Assembly: GCF_027107535.1 (NCBI RefSeq)
Contig: NZ_CP114283.1
Location: 7,068,001 to 7,132,000, forward strand
DNA: 64,000 bases
Direction: 5' to 3'
Origin: Streptomyces aurantiacus
GTDB taxonomy: Bacteria > Actinomycetota > Actinomycetes > Streptomycetales > Streptomycetaceae
Shown: positions 6,193-34,612 of the stretch, piece by piece
How the letters are laid out: every line of letters begins with the position of its first letter
Numbering within the stretch: position 1 is the stretch's first letter
Program-made: the position numbers and the translations under genes
The notes under the pieces: generated by a model
Told to the model about the DNA's origin: nothing
Seen by the model: the letters and a program-made list of their open reading frames with translations, nothing else
Database searches by the model: none

Positions 6193-6224
6193 TTCCACGT
6201 AACGGAATTCAACGTTCTGTTGAA
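6193..6224 (-). promoter_or_regulatory. AllR-type box plus TTCAAC inverted repeat at the allB promoter
   Basis: 6193-6207 is TTCC-ACGTAAC-GGAA, and it abuts 6208-6224, TTCAAC-GTTCT-GTTGAA (perfect 6-bp arms). The same composite arrangement, read on the opposite strand, occurs before malate synthase at 8470-8501. Confidence 0.75.
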
Positions 6225-6300
6225 GGAGTCTTCACTCCGCACTCCATGCCGTCAAGGGTCGGCCTTCCGGCCGTCGTCGCGAGCGTCAACCCCTAGACGT

Positions 6301-6336
6301 TTCCACAAAGCGGAAATACACTTCCGTAGAGCAGAA
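6301..6336 (+). promoter_or_regulatory. Paired AllR-type boxes at the allR promoter
   Basis: 6301-6315 is TTCC-ACAAAGC-GGAA and 6322-6336 is TTCC-GTAGAGC-AGAA. The centres are exactly 21 bp apart, two helical turns, as in the hyi and gcl promoters. The position 80-115 nt before the regulator start suggests autoregulation. Confidence 0.78.
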
Positions 6337-6416
6337 CTTAGCCACGCAGAGCCGTACAGTCAACCAACTGCCGGGTAGGCTTCCCACCTGCCTGCCCGTC
6401 TGAAAGGACCGCGCCC

Positions 6417-7223
6417 GTGCCGACGTCCAGCGACGCCCCTGCCGATGTCGCCGCCAAGCCAGCCGCCGGCGGCGGTGGCGTCCAGTCCCTCGAGCGCGCC
6501 TTCGACCTGCTGGAGCGGATGGCGGACGCGGGCGGCGAGGTCGGACTGAGCGAGCTCTCCGCGAGCAGCGGTCTGCCGCTGCCCACCATCCACCGCCTCA
6601 TGCGCACCCTCGTGGCCTGCGGTTACGTGCGCCAGCAGACCAACCGGCGGTACGCGCTCGGACCGCGCCTGATCCGTCTCGGCGAGTCGGCGTCCAGGCT
6701 GCTCGGCACGTGGGCGCGCCCCTATCTGGCCCGCCTGGTCGAGGAGACCGGCGAGACGGCGAACATGGCCCTGCTCGACGGCGACGAGATCGTGTACGTG
6801 GCCCAGGTGCCGTCCAAGCACTCCATGCGGATGTTCACCGAGGTGGGCCGCAGGGTGCTGCCGCACTCCACCGGCGTCGGCAAGGCCCTGCTCGCCCACG
6901 TACCGGCCGACGAGGTGCGCGCCCTCCTGTCCCGTACGGGCATGCCCGCCGCCACCGAGAAGACGATCACGACACCGGACGGCTTCCTCGACGCCCTGGA
7001 GGAGGTGCGGCGCTCCGGCTACGCGGTGGACGACAACGAGCAGGAGATCGGGGTCCGCTGCCTCGCCGTCCCCGTGCCCGACTCGCCCACCGCCGCGGCC
7101 ATTTCGATCTCCGGACCGGCCGGCCGCGTCACGGAGGCGGCCACGGAGCGGATCGTGCCCGTGCTCCAGCAGGTCGCGGTGGAGCTGTCGGCGGCGCTGG
7201 CGAGTTCGGGCCCCGGAACCTGA
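6417..7223 (+). CDS. allR: IclR-family transcriptional regulator of allantoin catabolism (AllR type)
   Basis: A 268-residue IclR protein. After a disordered alanine-rich leader, residues about 21-85 form the winged helix (VQSLERAFDLLERM, LSELSASSGLPLPTIHRLMRTLV), followed by the effector domain with HSTGVGKALLA, DDNEQEIGVRCLAVPV and the Ser-rich ligand region. The start is GTG 6417, preceded by GAAAGGA. It is divergent from allB-alc. In Streptomyces coelicolor the IclR protein in this position represses allantoin genes and responds to allantoin-pathway metabolites; I recall this from the literature and have not looked it up. The palindromes in its own promoter recur before five other glyoxylate or purine genes in this window. 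Confidence 0.92.
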   Translation: MPTSSDAPADVAAKPAAGGGGVQSLERAFDLLERMADAGGEVGLSELSASSGLPLPTIHRLMRTLVACGYVRQQTNRRYALGPRLIRLGESASRLLGTWARPYLARLVEETGETANMALLDGDEIVYVAQVPSKHSMRMFTEVGRRVLPHSTGVGKALLAHVPADEVRALLSRTGMPAATEKTITTPDGFLDALEEVRRSGYAVDDNEQEIGVRCLAVPVPDSPTAAAISISGPAGRVTEAATERIVPVLQQVAVELSAALASSGPGT

Positions 7224-7307
7224 CCGGGCCCGGCCGGCGAACTGCGCCCGACGGGCCTGCCCGGCAAGGGAGTTGACCGGCCCGGGAAGGCCGTCGCCCG
7301 GTCGGGC

Positions 7308-7595
7308 TCAGCGGCGCGGCGGCTCTCCGAAGAGGTCGACCGCGCTGCGAACGCCCGCGAGGCCCGCGGCCAGTGCGCTGACCGAGCCGATGGAACCGGC
7401 GACCAGGAGCAGCGATCGGCGCAGGCGCGGAGCCTCGGGGATGCCGCTGACGGCCATCGCGGCGAGCGCCGCCAGTTCGTCCTCGGCGATGCCGCGGTCC
7501 GGGAACTCGGCCGGAAGCGCGGCGAGTTCGCGACGCAGCCTGGACACCGCGGTCCGCAACTCCGTCACTCTCGGGTCCTCGTCGCTGCCGGTCAC
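7308..7595 (-). CDS. Small conserved actinobacterial protein, function unknown (DUF5955-like)
   Basis: A 95-residue protein starting at GTG 7595 behind AGAGG. The N-terminal half is charged and helical (ELRTAVSRLRRELAALPAEF), the middle contains EDELAALAAMAVSG, and the C-terminal third is hydrophobic with Ala/Gly/Ser (LLLVAGSIGSVSALAAGLAG), which could be a weak membrane-associated helix. I do not recognise a catalytic motif. It reads convergently toward allR, and its promoter region is shared with the divergent nucleotidyltransferase gene. The family name is from memory and tentative. Confidence 0.65.
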   Translation of the reverse strand: MTGSDEDPRVTELRTAVSRLRRELAALPAEFPDRGIAEDELAALAAMAVSGIPEAPRLRRSLLLVAGSIGSVSALAAGLAGVRSAVDLFGEPPRR

Positions 7596-7808
7596 TGACC
7601 TCTGTCCCAAGCTCCGCAACACAGCTCTCCCCTTCGTACGCCGTCGCGCGCGAGACGCCCTCGCTCCCGCCGACCGTCCCGTGACGCTGGTCGGGCGCCG
7701 GGGACGCGGGCCAGTAAACGCCACCCGGTGCGGTGGACGCCACCGCGAGGACCGAAATTCAGACCCCGGACATCCTCTTCTCGCCCCGCGGTCAGGTATG
7801 CAGGAGGA

Positions 7809-32201: not shown

Positions 32202-32547
32202 TCGCCGTCCGCGACGCCCCTCGGCTCCCCGGCCCGCCGACCGTCCGGCCGGGCCGCCGGAGCCCCGCTCGCGCACGGCCCCGTACGTACGCCGGTGGGC
32301 GTACCCCGGCTACGGAACCCTCAAATGAACCTCTGAACATGGCCCAGGGGCTTCAACTCACTGTGTTCCAGGGCACATTCTCAGCACATGGGGCCCGCCG
32401 GCACGGGGGCGGCGGGCCTCACCGTGGGCCACCACGGGCCGGGCCCGGCACGGGGGCGGGTCCGCAGGGGTGGGACCACGGGGGCAACACGGGGGCGGCG
32501 GGTTCGGTTCGGGCGGCGGCGGGGGCTGCTCGGGCCGGGCACGGCGC

Positions 32548-32582
32548 GAGGCCCCCGTCCTGGTTCACAGGACGGGGGCCTC
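32548..32582. terminator. Third stem-loop in the glxR-gcl gap
   Basis: A perfect 15-bp inverted repeat (32548-32562 and 32568-32582) with a 5-nt loop, the most compact of the three and the likely gcl terminator. Confidence 0.7.
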
Positions 32583-32682
32583 GGCCTCCCCGCGGGCCCG
32601 ACGAGCCGACGTCGGACGGCTGTTCACATCGCACGGGCCGGTCCGCTCGGACGGGCCGTGCAGTCTTCAGGTCAGATCATCC

Positions 32683-32730
32683 GGTCGGGTCGGGTCGGGT
32701 CAGGTCGGGTCGGGTCGGGTCGGGTCGGGT
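32683..32730. repeat. CGGGT pentamer tandem repeat abutting the gcl stop codon
   Basis: About nine copies of a 5-bp unit (CGGGT, one CAGGT variant) end exactly at the gcl stop codon (TGA, complement 32730-32732). Pure short repeats of this kind can vary in length between strains. Confidence 0.85.
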
Positions 32731-34514
32731 CACACCGTCAGGGGCCTGATGGACGTGGGCGCGTGGCCCGGTTCGGTCGCGATCTCCTCGAACTCCACGA
32801 CGTTGCTGATGTCGTTGGTGGTGGACATCGAGATGTTGGTGACACGCTCCAGGATGGCCTCGACGACCACCGGGACCCTGAATTCGACGGCGAGCTTCTT
32901 CGCCTGCTCGAAGGCCGCGCCCAGCTCGCTCGGGTCGGTGACGCGGATCGCCTTGCAGCCGAGCCCTTCGACGACCTTCACGTGATCGACCCCGTACACG
33001 CCCAGCTCGGGCGAGTTGACGTTCTCGAACTCCAGGTTGACCTGGAAGTCGATGTCGAACGCCCGCTGGGCCTGGCGGATCAGGCCGAGGTACGCGTTGT
33101 TCACCAGGACGTGGACGTACGGGATCCGGTGCTGCGCCCCGACGGCCAGTTCCTCGATCATGAACTGGAAGTCGTAGTCGCCGGACAGCGCGACCACCTG
33201 CGCCTCGGGGTCGGCCTTGGCGACGCCGAGTGCGGCCGGGACGGTCCAGCCGAGCGGGCCCGCCTGACCGCAGTTGATCCAGTGCCGCGGCCGGTAGACG
33301 TGCAGCATCTGCGCGCCGGCGATCTGCGAGAGGCCGATCGTGGTGACGTACCGCGTCTCCGGGCCGAAGGCCTTGTTCATCTCCTCGTAGACCCGCTGCG
33401 GCTTGATCGGGATGTCGTCGAAGTGCGTACGGCGCTGGAGGGTCGCCTTCCTCTCCTGCGCGGACCGGGCCCACGCGGACCGGTCGGGCAGCCTGCCCGC
33501 GGCCTTCAGCTCCCGGGCCACCTCGACGAACAGTTCGAGCGCGGCCCCGGCGTCGGAGGCGATGCCGTAGTCCGGGGCGAAGATCCGGCCGATCTGGGTC
33601 GGCTCGATGTCGACGTGCACGAACTTCCGGCCGGCGGTGTAGACGTCCAGTTTCCCGGTGTGGCGGTTGGCCCAGCGGTTTCCGATGCCGAGCACGAAGT
33701 CGGACTCCAGGAAGGTCGCGTTGCCGTAGCGGTGCGAGGTCTGCAGACCCACCATGCCGGCGTTGAGCTCGTGGTCGTCGGGGACGATACCCCAGCCCAT
33801 GAGGGTCGGCACCACCGGGACGCCGGTCAACTCGGCGAATTCGACGAGGAGTTCGGAGGCGTCAGCGTTGATGATGCCGCCGCCGGCGACGATCAGGGGA
33901 CGCTCGGACTCGTTGAGGAGCGTGAGCGCCTTCTCGACCTGGGCGCGGGTCGCGGCCGGCTTGTAGACCGGCAGCGGCTCGTACGTCCCGGGGTCGAACT
34001 CGATCTCCGTGAGCTGGACGTCGATCGGGAGGTCGATCAGGACGGGGCCCGGGCGGGCCGAGCGCATCAGATGGAAGGCCTGCTGGAAGACGCCCGGGAC
34101 CTGCGCGGCCTCCAGGACGGTGACCGCCATCTTGGCGACCGGCCTGGCGATCGACGCGATGTCGACGGCCTGGAAGTCCTCCTTGTGGATCACGGCGGTC
34201 GGGGCCTGGCCGGTGATGCACAGGATCGGGACGGAGTCGCCGGTCGCGGAGTACAGGCCGGTGATCATGTCGGTGCCGGCCGGGCCGGACGTGCCGATAC
34301 AGACGCCGATGTTGCCGGGGGCGGTGCGGGTGTAGCCCTCCGCCATGTGGGAGGCGCCCTCCACGTGCCTGGCGAGGGTGTGGCTGATGCCACCGGAGGC
34401 CTGCAGCGCCGCGTAGAAGGGGTTGATCGCCGCGCCCGGGACACCGAACGCACTGGTGACGCCCTCGCGCTTGAGGATCTCAACTGCCGCGCGGGCAGCG
34501 GTCATACGAGCCAT
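32730..34514 (-). CDS. gcl: Glyoxylate carboligase (tartronate semialdehyde synthase)
   Basis: A 594-residue ThDP enzyme from ATG 34514. The N-terminal [16 protein letters not shown] and [15 protein letters not shown] are nearly those of E. coli Gcl, including Val51 in place of the glutamate that nearly all other ThDP enzymes use. The C-terminal ThDP/Mg motif is [18 protein letters not shown] with NNAYLGL. It joins two glyoxylate molecules to tartronate semialdehyde plus CO2, the substrate of GlxR or Hyi. Paired AllR boxes lie 63-98 nt before the start. Confidence 0.97.
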
Positions 34515-34576
34515 TGCGTACTCCTGCTTCGGCCGTCGGATTCGGGCTCCCGTCGCGCCCCGCGGAGAGCTTCAAA

Positions 34577-34612
34577 TTCCGTATTACGGAAACTAACTTC
34601 TACTATCTGGAA
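34577..34612 (-). promoter_or_regulatory. Paired AllR-type boxes at the gcl promoter
   Basis: 34577-34591 is TTCC-GTATTAC-GGAA and 34598-34612 is TTCT-ACTATCT-GGAA. The centres are 21 bp apart. The stretch is distinctly AT-richer than its surroundings. Confidence 0.78.

Follow-up and report, generated by a model that had tools for sequence, protein, structure and literature searches.

A 64,000-nucleotide stretch of the Streptomyces aurantiacus genome (contig NZ_CP114283.1; hereafter, the window) harbors genes of urate, allantoin and glyoxylate metabolism whose promoters carry two kinds of conserved palindrome. Our reading is that these palindromes mark two overlapping regulons: AllR, an IclR-family regulator, would act on pairs of TTCC-N7-GGAA sites, and a 122-amino acid (aa) protein with an HTH_22 domain would act on a second palindrome, TTCAAC-N5-GTTGA[A/C]. 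On the basis of sequence comparison, we give this reading a probability of about 0.6. The AllR half confirms a known kind of system and is largely known. The second palindrome was missed by an original prediction, made from the letters of the window, which had tentatively extended an AllR regulon to the urate genes.

Probable AllR sites in pairs with a strict spacing

Perfect copies of TTCC-N7-GGAA lie at window positions 210, 6193, 6301, 8487, 29829 and 34577 (six, against 0.38 expected), and copies with one mismatch include those at 6322, 28708, 29808 and 34598. At 8508 and 28729, the second copy of a pair deviates by two mismatches. The palindromes listed in the original prediction were thus found where it had placed them. 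Single sites with one mismatch are weakly above chance (21 in the window, against 12.2 expected). The perfect single copy at 210-224, which the original prediction does not list, lies where an open frame (205-1980) begins and is probably fortuitous.

When two copies are required 21 bp apart, the resulting 36-bp pattern is found with three mismatches or fewer at six places in the window, compared with a mean of 0.02 in shuffled sequences, and at 47 places in the whole 9.9-Mb genome, compared with 22 for the reversed pattern. Three places only have one mismatch, and these are located before allR (6301..6336), hyi-glxR (29808..29843) and gcl (34577..34612). Five have two mismatches: one before aceB (8487..8522) and four elsewhere. 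The other 39 have three, two of them being the pairs formerly claimed for allB and uraD. A genome scan of the kind proposed with the original prediction hence singles out allR, hyi and gcl when one mismatch is allowed, and at this stringency the pair is not common at unrelated loci; at three mismatches, 37 further places exist in the genome.

Conservation of the spacing was surveyed upstream of five genes in relatives, with every spacing between 15 and 40 bp in competition. Each half was allowed two mismatches at most, and a pair was scored as present if it had three or fewer overall; owing to the limit per half, two loci with a three-mismatch pair in another scan (L042 and L167) count as failures. 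Orientation was taken from tblastn; an earlier scan of the same promoters had been oriented by reading translations. Among the relatives, "Streptomyces" denotes genomes of the same genus as the window. The 21-bp pair was present in all 19 gcl promoters, after one locus whose upstream part is cut (L069) had been dropped, and in 22 of 28 hyi promoters, which comprise 22 of 22 Streptomyces promoters and none of six outside the genus. In these 19 and 22 promoters, a spacing of 21 bp alone won the competition. The aceB set yielded 22 of 25 (21 of 24 Streptomyces plus genome G037); loci L145-L169 were used, and L170-L174 were left out by our own choice, as they belong to other genera, are second malate synthases or come from G001. 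For allR, 35 of 39 distinct promoters had the pair (34 of 37 Streptomyces plus G037; G053 is without it), the set of 40 containing genome G012 twice (L056 and L197). A further sample was made of 80 named Streptomyces loci, and it contained 66 pairs with no more than one mismatch and a spacing of 15-40 bp; in 64 of these, from 57 loci, the copies were exactly 21 bp apart.

The strict spacing proposed from the window is therefore real. As for the claim that five of six promoters are paired, it holds for allR, aceB, hyi and gcl, where the pairs are rare and conserved, and fails for uraD and allB. A paired site at allB was rejected, as its apparent second copy, 21 bp further on, lies within the second palindrome (6208-6224). 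Judged by rarity and conservation, control of allR, aceB, hyi-glxR and gcl by AllR through 21-bp pairs is well supported. The sites and their conservation are direct observations, from which we infer binding by AllR as a repressor and, probably, as a tetramer.

The allR gene (6417..7223, plus strand) encodes a 268-aa protein with the Pfam domains HTH_IclR and IclR_C and adjoins the divergent allB gene. A match was detected in 37 of 37 genomes of the same genus and in 2 of 24 others. Its score with the NCBIfam equivalog of Escherichia coli AllR (NF007548), 123.7 bits, is below the cut-off of 406. Both proteins are IclR-type regulators of genes for allantoin and glyoxylate metabolism; however, the E. 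coli AllR motif given in the consulted part of PMC8222616, KTTGGAAWAWTWTTCCAAC, is unlike the TTCC-N7-GGAA of the window. In that same part, tandem palindromes are predicted for IclR regulators of 94 orthologous groups, 18-22 nucleotides apart and mainly 19-21, with tetramers on one face of the DNA. Two helical turns between dimers are thus already described for IclR regulators generally, and the conserved 21 nucleotides at gcl, hyi, aceB and allR are one more instance of the same principle, in a strict form. S. coelicolor AllR is cited as a repressor of allantoin genes in the portions consulted of PMC12772271 and PMC11438217. It shares the IclR type with the window protein, and what is measured in the present analysis is the 21-bp pairing over four promoters and its conservation. 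The S. coelicolor regulator is reportedly described as IclR-type by Navone et al. (2015, AEM 81:6649).

A different palindrome at the urate genes

The second palindrome is found before allB (TTCAAC-N5-GTTGAA, 6208..6224), before uraD (TTCAACAAAGTGTTGAC, 28676..28692, sequence on the minus strand) and, in a degenerate form with two mismatches, before aceB (8469..8485). Its exact core, TCAAC-N5-GTTGA, precedes uraD in all 80 named Streptomyces loci; as these loci were picked through their HTH_22 protein, they test the palindrome and not the presence of HTH_22. In the same set, the exact core precedes a catalase gene (PF00199) in 24 of 25 usable promoters, and is absent before hyi (0/60), gcl (0/8), glxR (0/58), the amidohydrolase gene (0/76) and the uricase gene (0/33). 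Among the relatives, the palindrome was detected in 28 of 30 allB-allR gaps; one miss is cut by a contig end (L060) and the other is unexplained (L063). The exact core was present in 24 of 30 uraD promoters, the six misses being one Streptomyces locus that reads TTTAAC (L111) and five loci outside the genus. The urate genes carry a conserved putative operator that is different from the AllR pair.

A comparison of the flanks, in which the palindrome arms are invariant by construction of the search, gave a mean of 56% over bases 40 to 6 upstream, while the five bases beside the palindrome are 65-99% conserved. At aceB, a block just upstream of the palindrome (GAGAATCTCGAC, window 8457-8468) is conserved in many relatives, and locus L355 has an exact core 141 bp upstream of the gene.

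In the named genomes where the core precedes the catalase gene, this gene lies beyond hyi-glxR. No catalase match was found in the window by tblastn with the catalase of a relative (best E, 0.56). The catalase promoter of locus L200 has, besides the TTCAAC palindrome, one sequence that nearly matches the AllR site, CTCCACAAAGCGGAA, located there (2550-2650) and at similar loci just past the predicted -10 box. Two other loci present tandem TTCAAC palindromes before the catalase gene, 21 bp apart in L248 (2747/2768) and 23 bp apart in L266 (2641/2664).

In the genome of the window, the exact core occurs 11 times, compared with 4 for the reversed control. Five occurrences (L177, L180, L181, L184 and L185) were set aside, since each overlaps an open frame whose G+C is coding-like. 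L178 and L179 seem to lie between genes. L175 and L176 (C2:434531 and 434559) read GTCAAC-N5-GTTGAC and are separated by 28 bp; they are flanked by an HTH-like gene and a gene divergent to it, and probably serve as operators of that HTH-like regulator itself. A scan of the genus detected TCAACNNNSTGTTGA in 40 of 41 genomes, with 0 to 4 matches of the reversed control per genome and strand. This count by itself was not taken as evidence for the regulon because some matches are a conserved coding stretch, TCAACAGGCTGTTGA (open frame at L184).

Location of the sites in predicted promoters

Promoter boxes were read from the sequence, so that the start sites considered here are predicted and not mapped. 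The predicted uraD promoter (TTGACG, 17 bp, TTAGCT; 28652..28680, minus strand) has the end of the palindrome in its -35 box, and the spacer is 17 bp in 14 and 18 bp in 9 of 23 relatives. At aceB (TTGAAC, 17 bp, TAGTAT; 8481..8509, plus strand), the palindrome ends in the predicted -35 box, TTGAAC, the promoter spacer is taken up by the first AllR site and the -10 region is covered by the second; the pattern TTGAA[CAG]-N17-TAnnWT was found in 20 of 30 loci. The allB promoter is predicted on the minus strand (TTGACG, 17 bp, AAGACT; 6227..6255), and its palindrome covers approximately -4 to +13, at the predicted start site, with a distance from TTGAC to the palindrome of 26-27 bp in 25 of 28 loci. 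A single, perfect TTCC-N7-GGAA (6193..6207) lies in the predicted allB leader. In the catalase promoters the palindrome overlaps the predicted -35 box.

Sites near -39, as in uraD and aceB, would by themselves suit either a repressor or an activator. A palindrome at the transcription start, as predicted for allB, fits a repressor better.

An HTH_22 protein as candidate regulator

The proposed regulator of the second palindrome is encoded at 28897..29265 on the minus strand. Its 122 aa score 74.7 bits with PF13309 (HTH_22), well over the cut-off of 29.6. It shares this C-terminal domain with regulators of the YheO/DauR type, but no N-terminal YheO PAS domain is present among the matches with E up to 0.001, where HTH_22 alone is reported. 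A search by sequence gave no solved relative (two matches with E of 0.56-0.59 are unrelated), and the 120 database relatives listed, of 2,687, are all named in generic terms, for instance as 'helix-turn-helix domain-containing protein'. The gene overlaps by 4 bases a conserved neighbor for a small Thiamine_BP-like protein (29262..29585, likely start 29513, minus strand; PF01910, 21.9 bits, below the cut-off of 24.9). The distance from the hyi pair to the latter gene was usable in 6 of 80 loci and was not used.

Of the 25 Streptomyces uraD loci among the relatives, 24 have the HTH_22 gene immediately upstream of uraD, with the match broken in two in L111; the sequence of the remaining locus, L093, stops 206 bp upstream. 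The gene was found in none of the five uraD loci outside the genus, where the palindrome is also absent within two mismatches. In a class-level sample, 27 of 296 genomes had an HTH_22 match, 25 of them Streptomyces, and the exact core was present in 22 of the 24 Streptomyces HTH_22 loci other than that of the window. Of the two matches from outside the genus, G102 belongs to another family and shows a Thiamine_BP-like gene, a 56%-identical HTH_22 stretch that shares the residues RFTVYNYLNR, and then TTCAACAAACTGTTGAC, AllR-type sites paired at 21 bp, and uricase. In G109, the second match, the residues at the RFTVYNYLNR position differ, and only sites with two mismatches are present. The HTH_22 gene and the TTCAAC palindrome therefore co-occur across genomes, and the HTH_22 protein is the best candidate to read the palindrome.

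Three Streptomyces listed in the class-level sample have no HTH_22 match. Two of them, G253 and G331, are uninformative since no close uraD was found. The third, G207, keeps AllR (83%) and aceB (82%), with 21-bp pairs before allR (three mismatches) and aceB (two mismatches). The palindrome was found neither near its uraD, which is 44% identical and adjoins what is left of the Thiamine_BP-like gene, nor before aceB. Its allB gene is broken off, and the allB palindrome is altered to TTCGAC-N5-GTCGAA.

Alternative explanations

The original prediction had tentatively placed the urate genes under AllR on account of a degenerate TTCC pair before uraD (28708..28743). This pair, which has three mismatches at exactly 21 bp and lies upstream of uraD, might be a genuine AllR site gained by this one species. 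However, 39 places with three mismatches exist genome-wide, none of the 29 other uraD promoters has the pair (the window's own is the only one in 30), no TTCC pair with two mismatches or fewer is found in the 80 named uraD promoters, and the pair is located upstream of the predicted -35 box, without covering the promoter. We consider that it arose by chance, have rejected uraD as a 21-bp AllR target, and regard a gain in this species as very improbable. Another way to bring the urate genes into the AllR regulon is to suppose that AllR alone recognizes the TTCAAC palindrome as well as the TTCC pairs. Such a view accounts for the presence of both kinds of site in the allB-allR region and at aceB; furthermore, a single AllR-like site with one mismatch at most abuts the palindrome in 12 of the 28 loci that hold the palindrome at allB. 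We nonetheless find it unlikely: arms and spacing differ between the TTCC pair and the TTCAAC palindrome; the exact core is never seen at gcl or hyi, whose AllR sites are the best; G207 has kept AllR and its pairs, and the palindrome is lost or altered there; and the 16 kb around allR in the outgroups G037 and G053, stretches in which allB and uraD were not seen, contain neither an HTH_22 match nor the palindrome within two mismatches.

A third, unlinked regulator might also read the palindrome, be it a TetR- or GntR-type protein encoded elsewhere or SenR, and the HTH_22 protein would then do another job. Operators of such length suit many regulator families, and the altered allB palindrome of G207 remains symmetric despite the absence of an HTH_22 match in that genome. 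In S. coelicolor, the genes from uraD to uricase (SCO6209-6211) are reported, in the part consulted of PMC4991794, to show a decrease upon oxidative stress in the wild type, and to be deregulated in a mutant without SenS-SenR; however, the SenR sites predicted there are GC-rich and unlike the palindrome. That the HTH_22 gene and the palindrome occur together both inside and outside the genus likewise argues against an unlinked regulator, which we view as a rather doubtful explanation that nevertheless deserves some weight.

Control of the second palindrome by the HTH_22 protein, with AllR on the TTCC pairs, is the reading that we prefer. Aside from the SenS-SenR effect on SCO6209-6211, several observations weigh against it. 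In the window's genome, 9 of the 11 exact cores are at neither allB nor uraD. The aceB copy is weak, as the exact core is present in 1 of 25 promoters and a copy within two mismatches in 18 of 24 Streptomyces. AllR pairs, in turn, were not found at 3 of 24 Streptomyces aceB promoters and 3 of 37 allR promoters. Two of the 24 HTH_22 loci (L323 and L329) have no core in the 3.3 kb covered; one of them has it at a uraD gene 3.7 kb further on, and in the other no uraD was seen over 12 kb. Adjacency is a further concern: as the HTH_22 gene neighbors uraD, their co-loss is possibly one event, and the palindrome near uraD may have disappeared from G207 in a single deletion together with the HTH_22 gene. 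The low identity of uraD in that genome, 44%, may alternatively indicate replacement. The change in the allB palindrome of G207 is separate from the deletion at uraD, yet its symmetry has been kept, and another protein could still read it. Lastly, the named loci and the other relatives overlap in part and belong nearly all to one genus, so they are not independent.

Genes of the locus

The allB gene (allantoinase; 4792..6150, minus strand) scores 633 bits with TIGR03178 (cut-off 358). Its GTG start at 6150 was judged from the sequence, in a frame that is open to 6198, and start and stop codons were checked. Beyond allR lie aceB (malate synthase A; 8607..10241, plus strand; TIGR01344, 826 bits) and a HipA_2-like kinase gene (10560-11483). 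The urate group is on the minus strand and has as its first gene uraD (OHCU decarboxylase; 28094..28612; PF09349). Uricase follows (26725..27930; PF01014), given as an open frame whose true start is probably further in, and then an amidohydrolase (25216-26595) and a Xan_ur_permease (23558-25006), both assigned by family model. On the plus strand, hyi (hydroxypyruvate isomerase-like; 29875..30732) matches PF01261 and scores 308 bits with TIGR03234, below the cut-off of 353, and glxR (tartronate semialdehyde reductase; 30836..31714) scores 490 bits with TIGR01505 (cut-off 341). The gcl gene (glyoxylate carboligase; 32730..34514, minus strand) scores 1223 bits with TIGR01504, and a run of GGTCG-type tandem repeats (32680-32732) is found just beyond its stop codon.

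A two-regulator model for purine breakdown

Our model for the locus is as follows. AllR, as an IclR-type repressor, would bind TTCC-N7-GGAA pairs whose centers are exactly 21 bp, or two DNA turns, apart, with one dimer per site and probably one tetramer per pair. It would close the promoters of allR, aceB, hyi-glxR and gcl, would bind the single site at allB, and would be released by an intermediate of the pathway. The HTH_22 protein would be a repressor of the uraD operon, allB, aceB and, in many relatives, the catalase gene, bound to a 17-bp palindrome that lies over the predicted -35 box or the predicted start site, and it would let urate enter the pathway. Catalase would remove the hydrogen peroxide made by uricase. 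Both regulators would act on allB, aceB and the catalase gene, as sites of either kind are present at these three. Sites, conservation, location in predicted promoters and co-occurrence of the HTH_22 gene are what we observe; who binds the palindrome, repression and the inducers are what we infer.

In the literature searched, no mention was found of the TTCAAC palindrome or of a urate-gene regulator that reads it in Streptomyces; this is a weak negative, as most subscription papers, including that on S. coelicolor AllR, were outside the search. A xanthine dehydrogenase regulator of Streptomyces, XdhR, is described in PMC6627660, and the terms allantoin, uric and uricase are absent from its text. 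A broader proposal, which we advance tentatively and at somewhat less than even odds, is that the stripped-down HTH_22 protein represents an undescribed family of regulators of urate breakdown in Streptomyces, probably in one operon with a possible Thiamine_BP-like ligand sensor. It would share promoters with AllR, and the pathway would open in two steps, urate first and ureide and glyoxylate second.

As this locus illustrates, a degenerate copy of a known motif can distract from another, conserved operator that lies within a few bases of it. Purine breakdown supplies nitrogen to soil actinomycetes, and the second operator would define a small, testable regulon of urate catabolism with a candidate regulator, joining uricase to the catalase that would remove its hydrogen peroxide.

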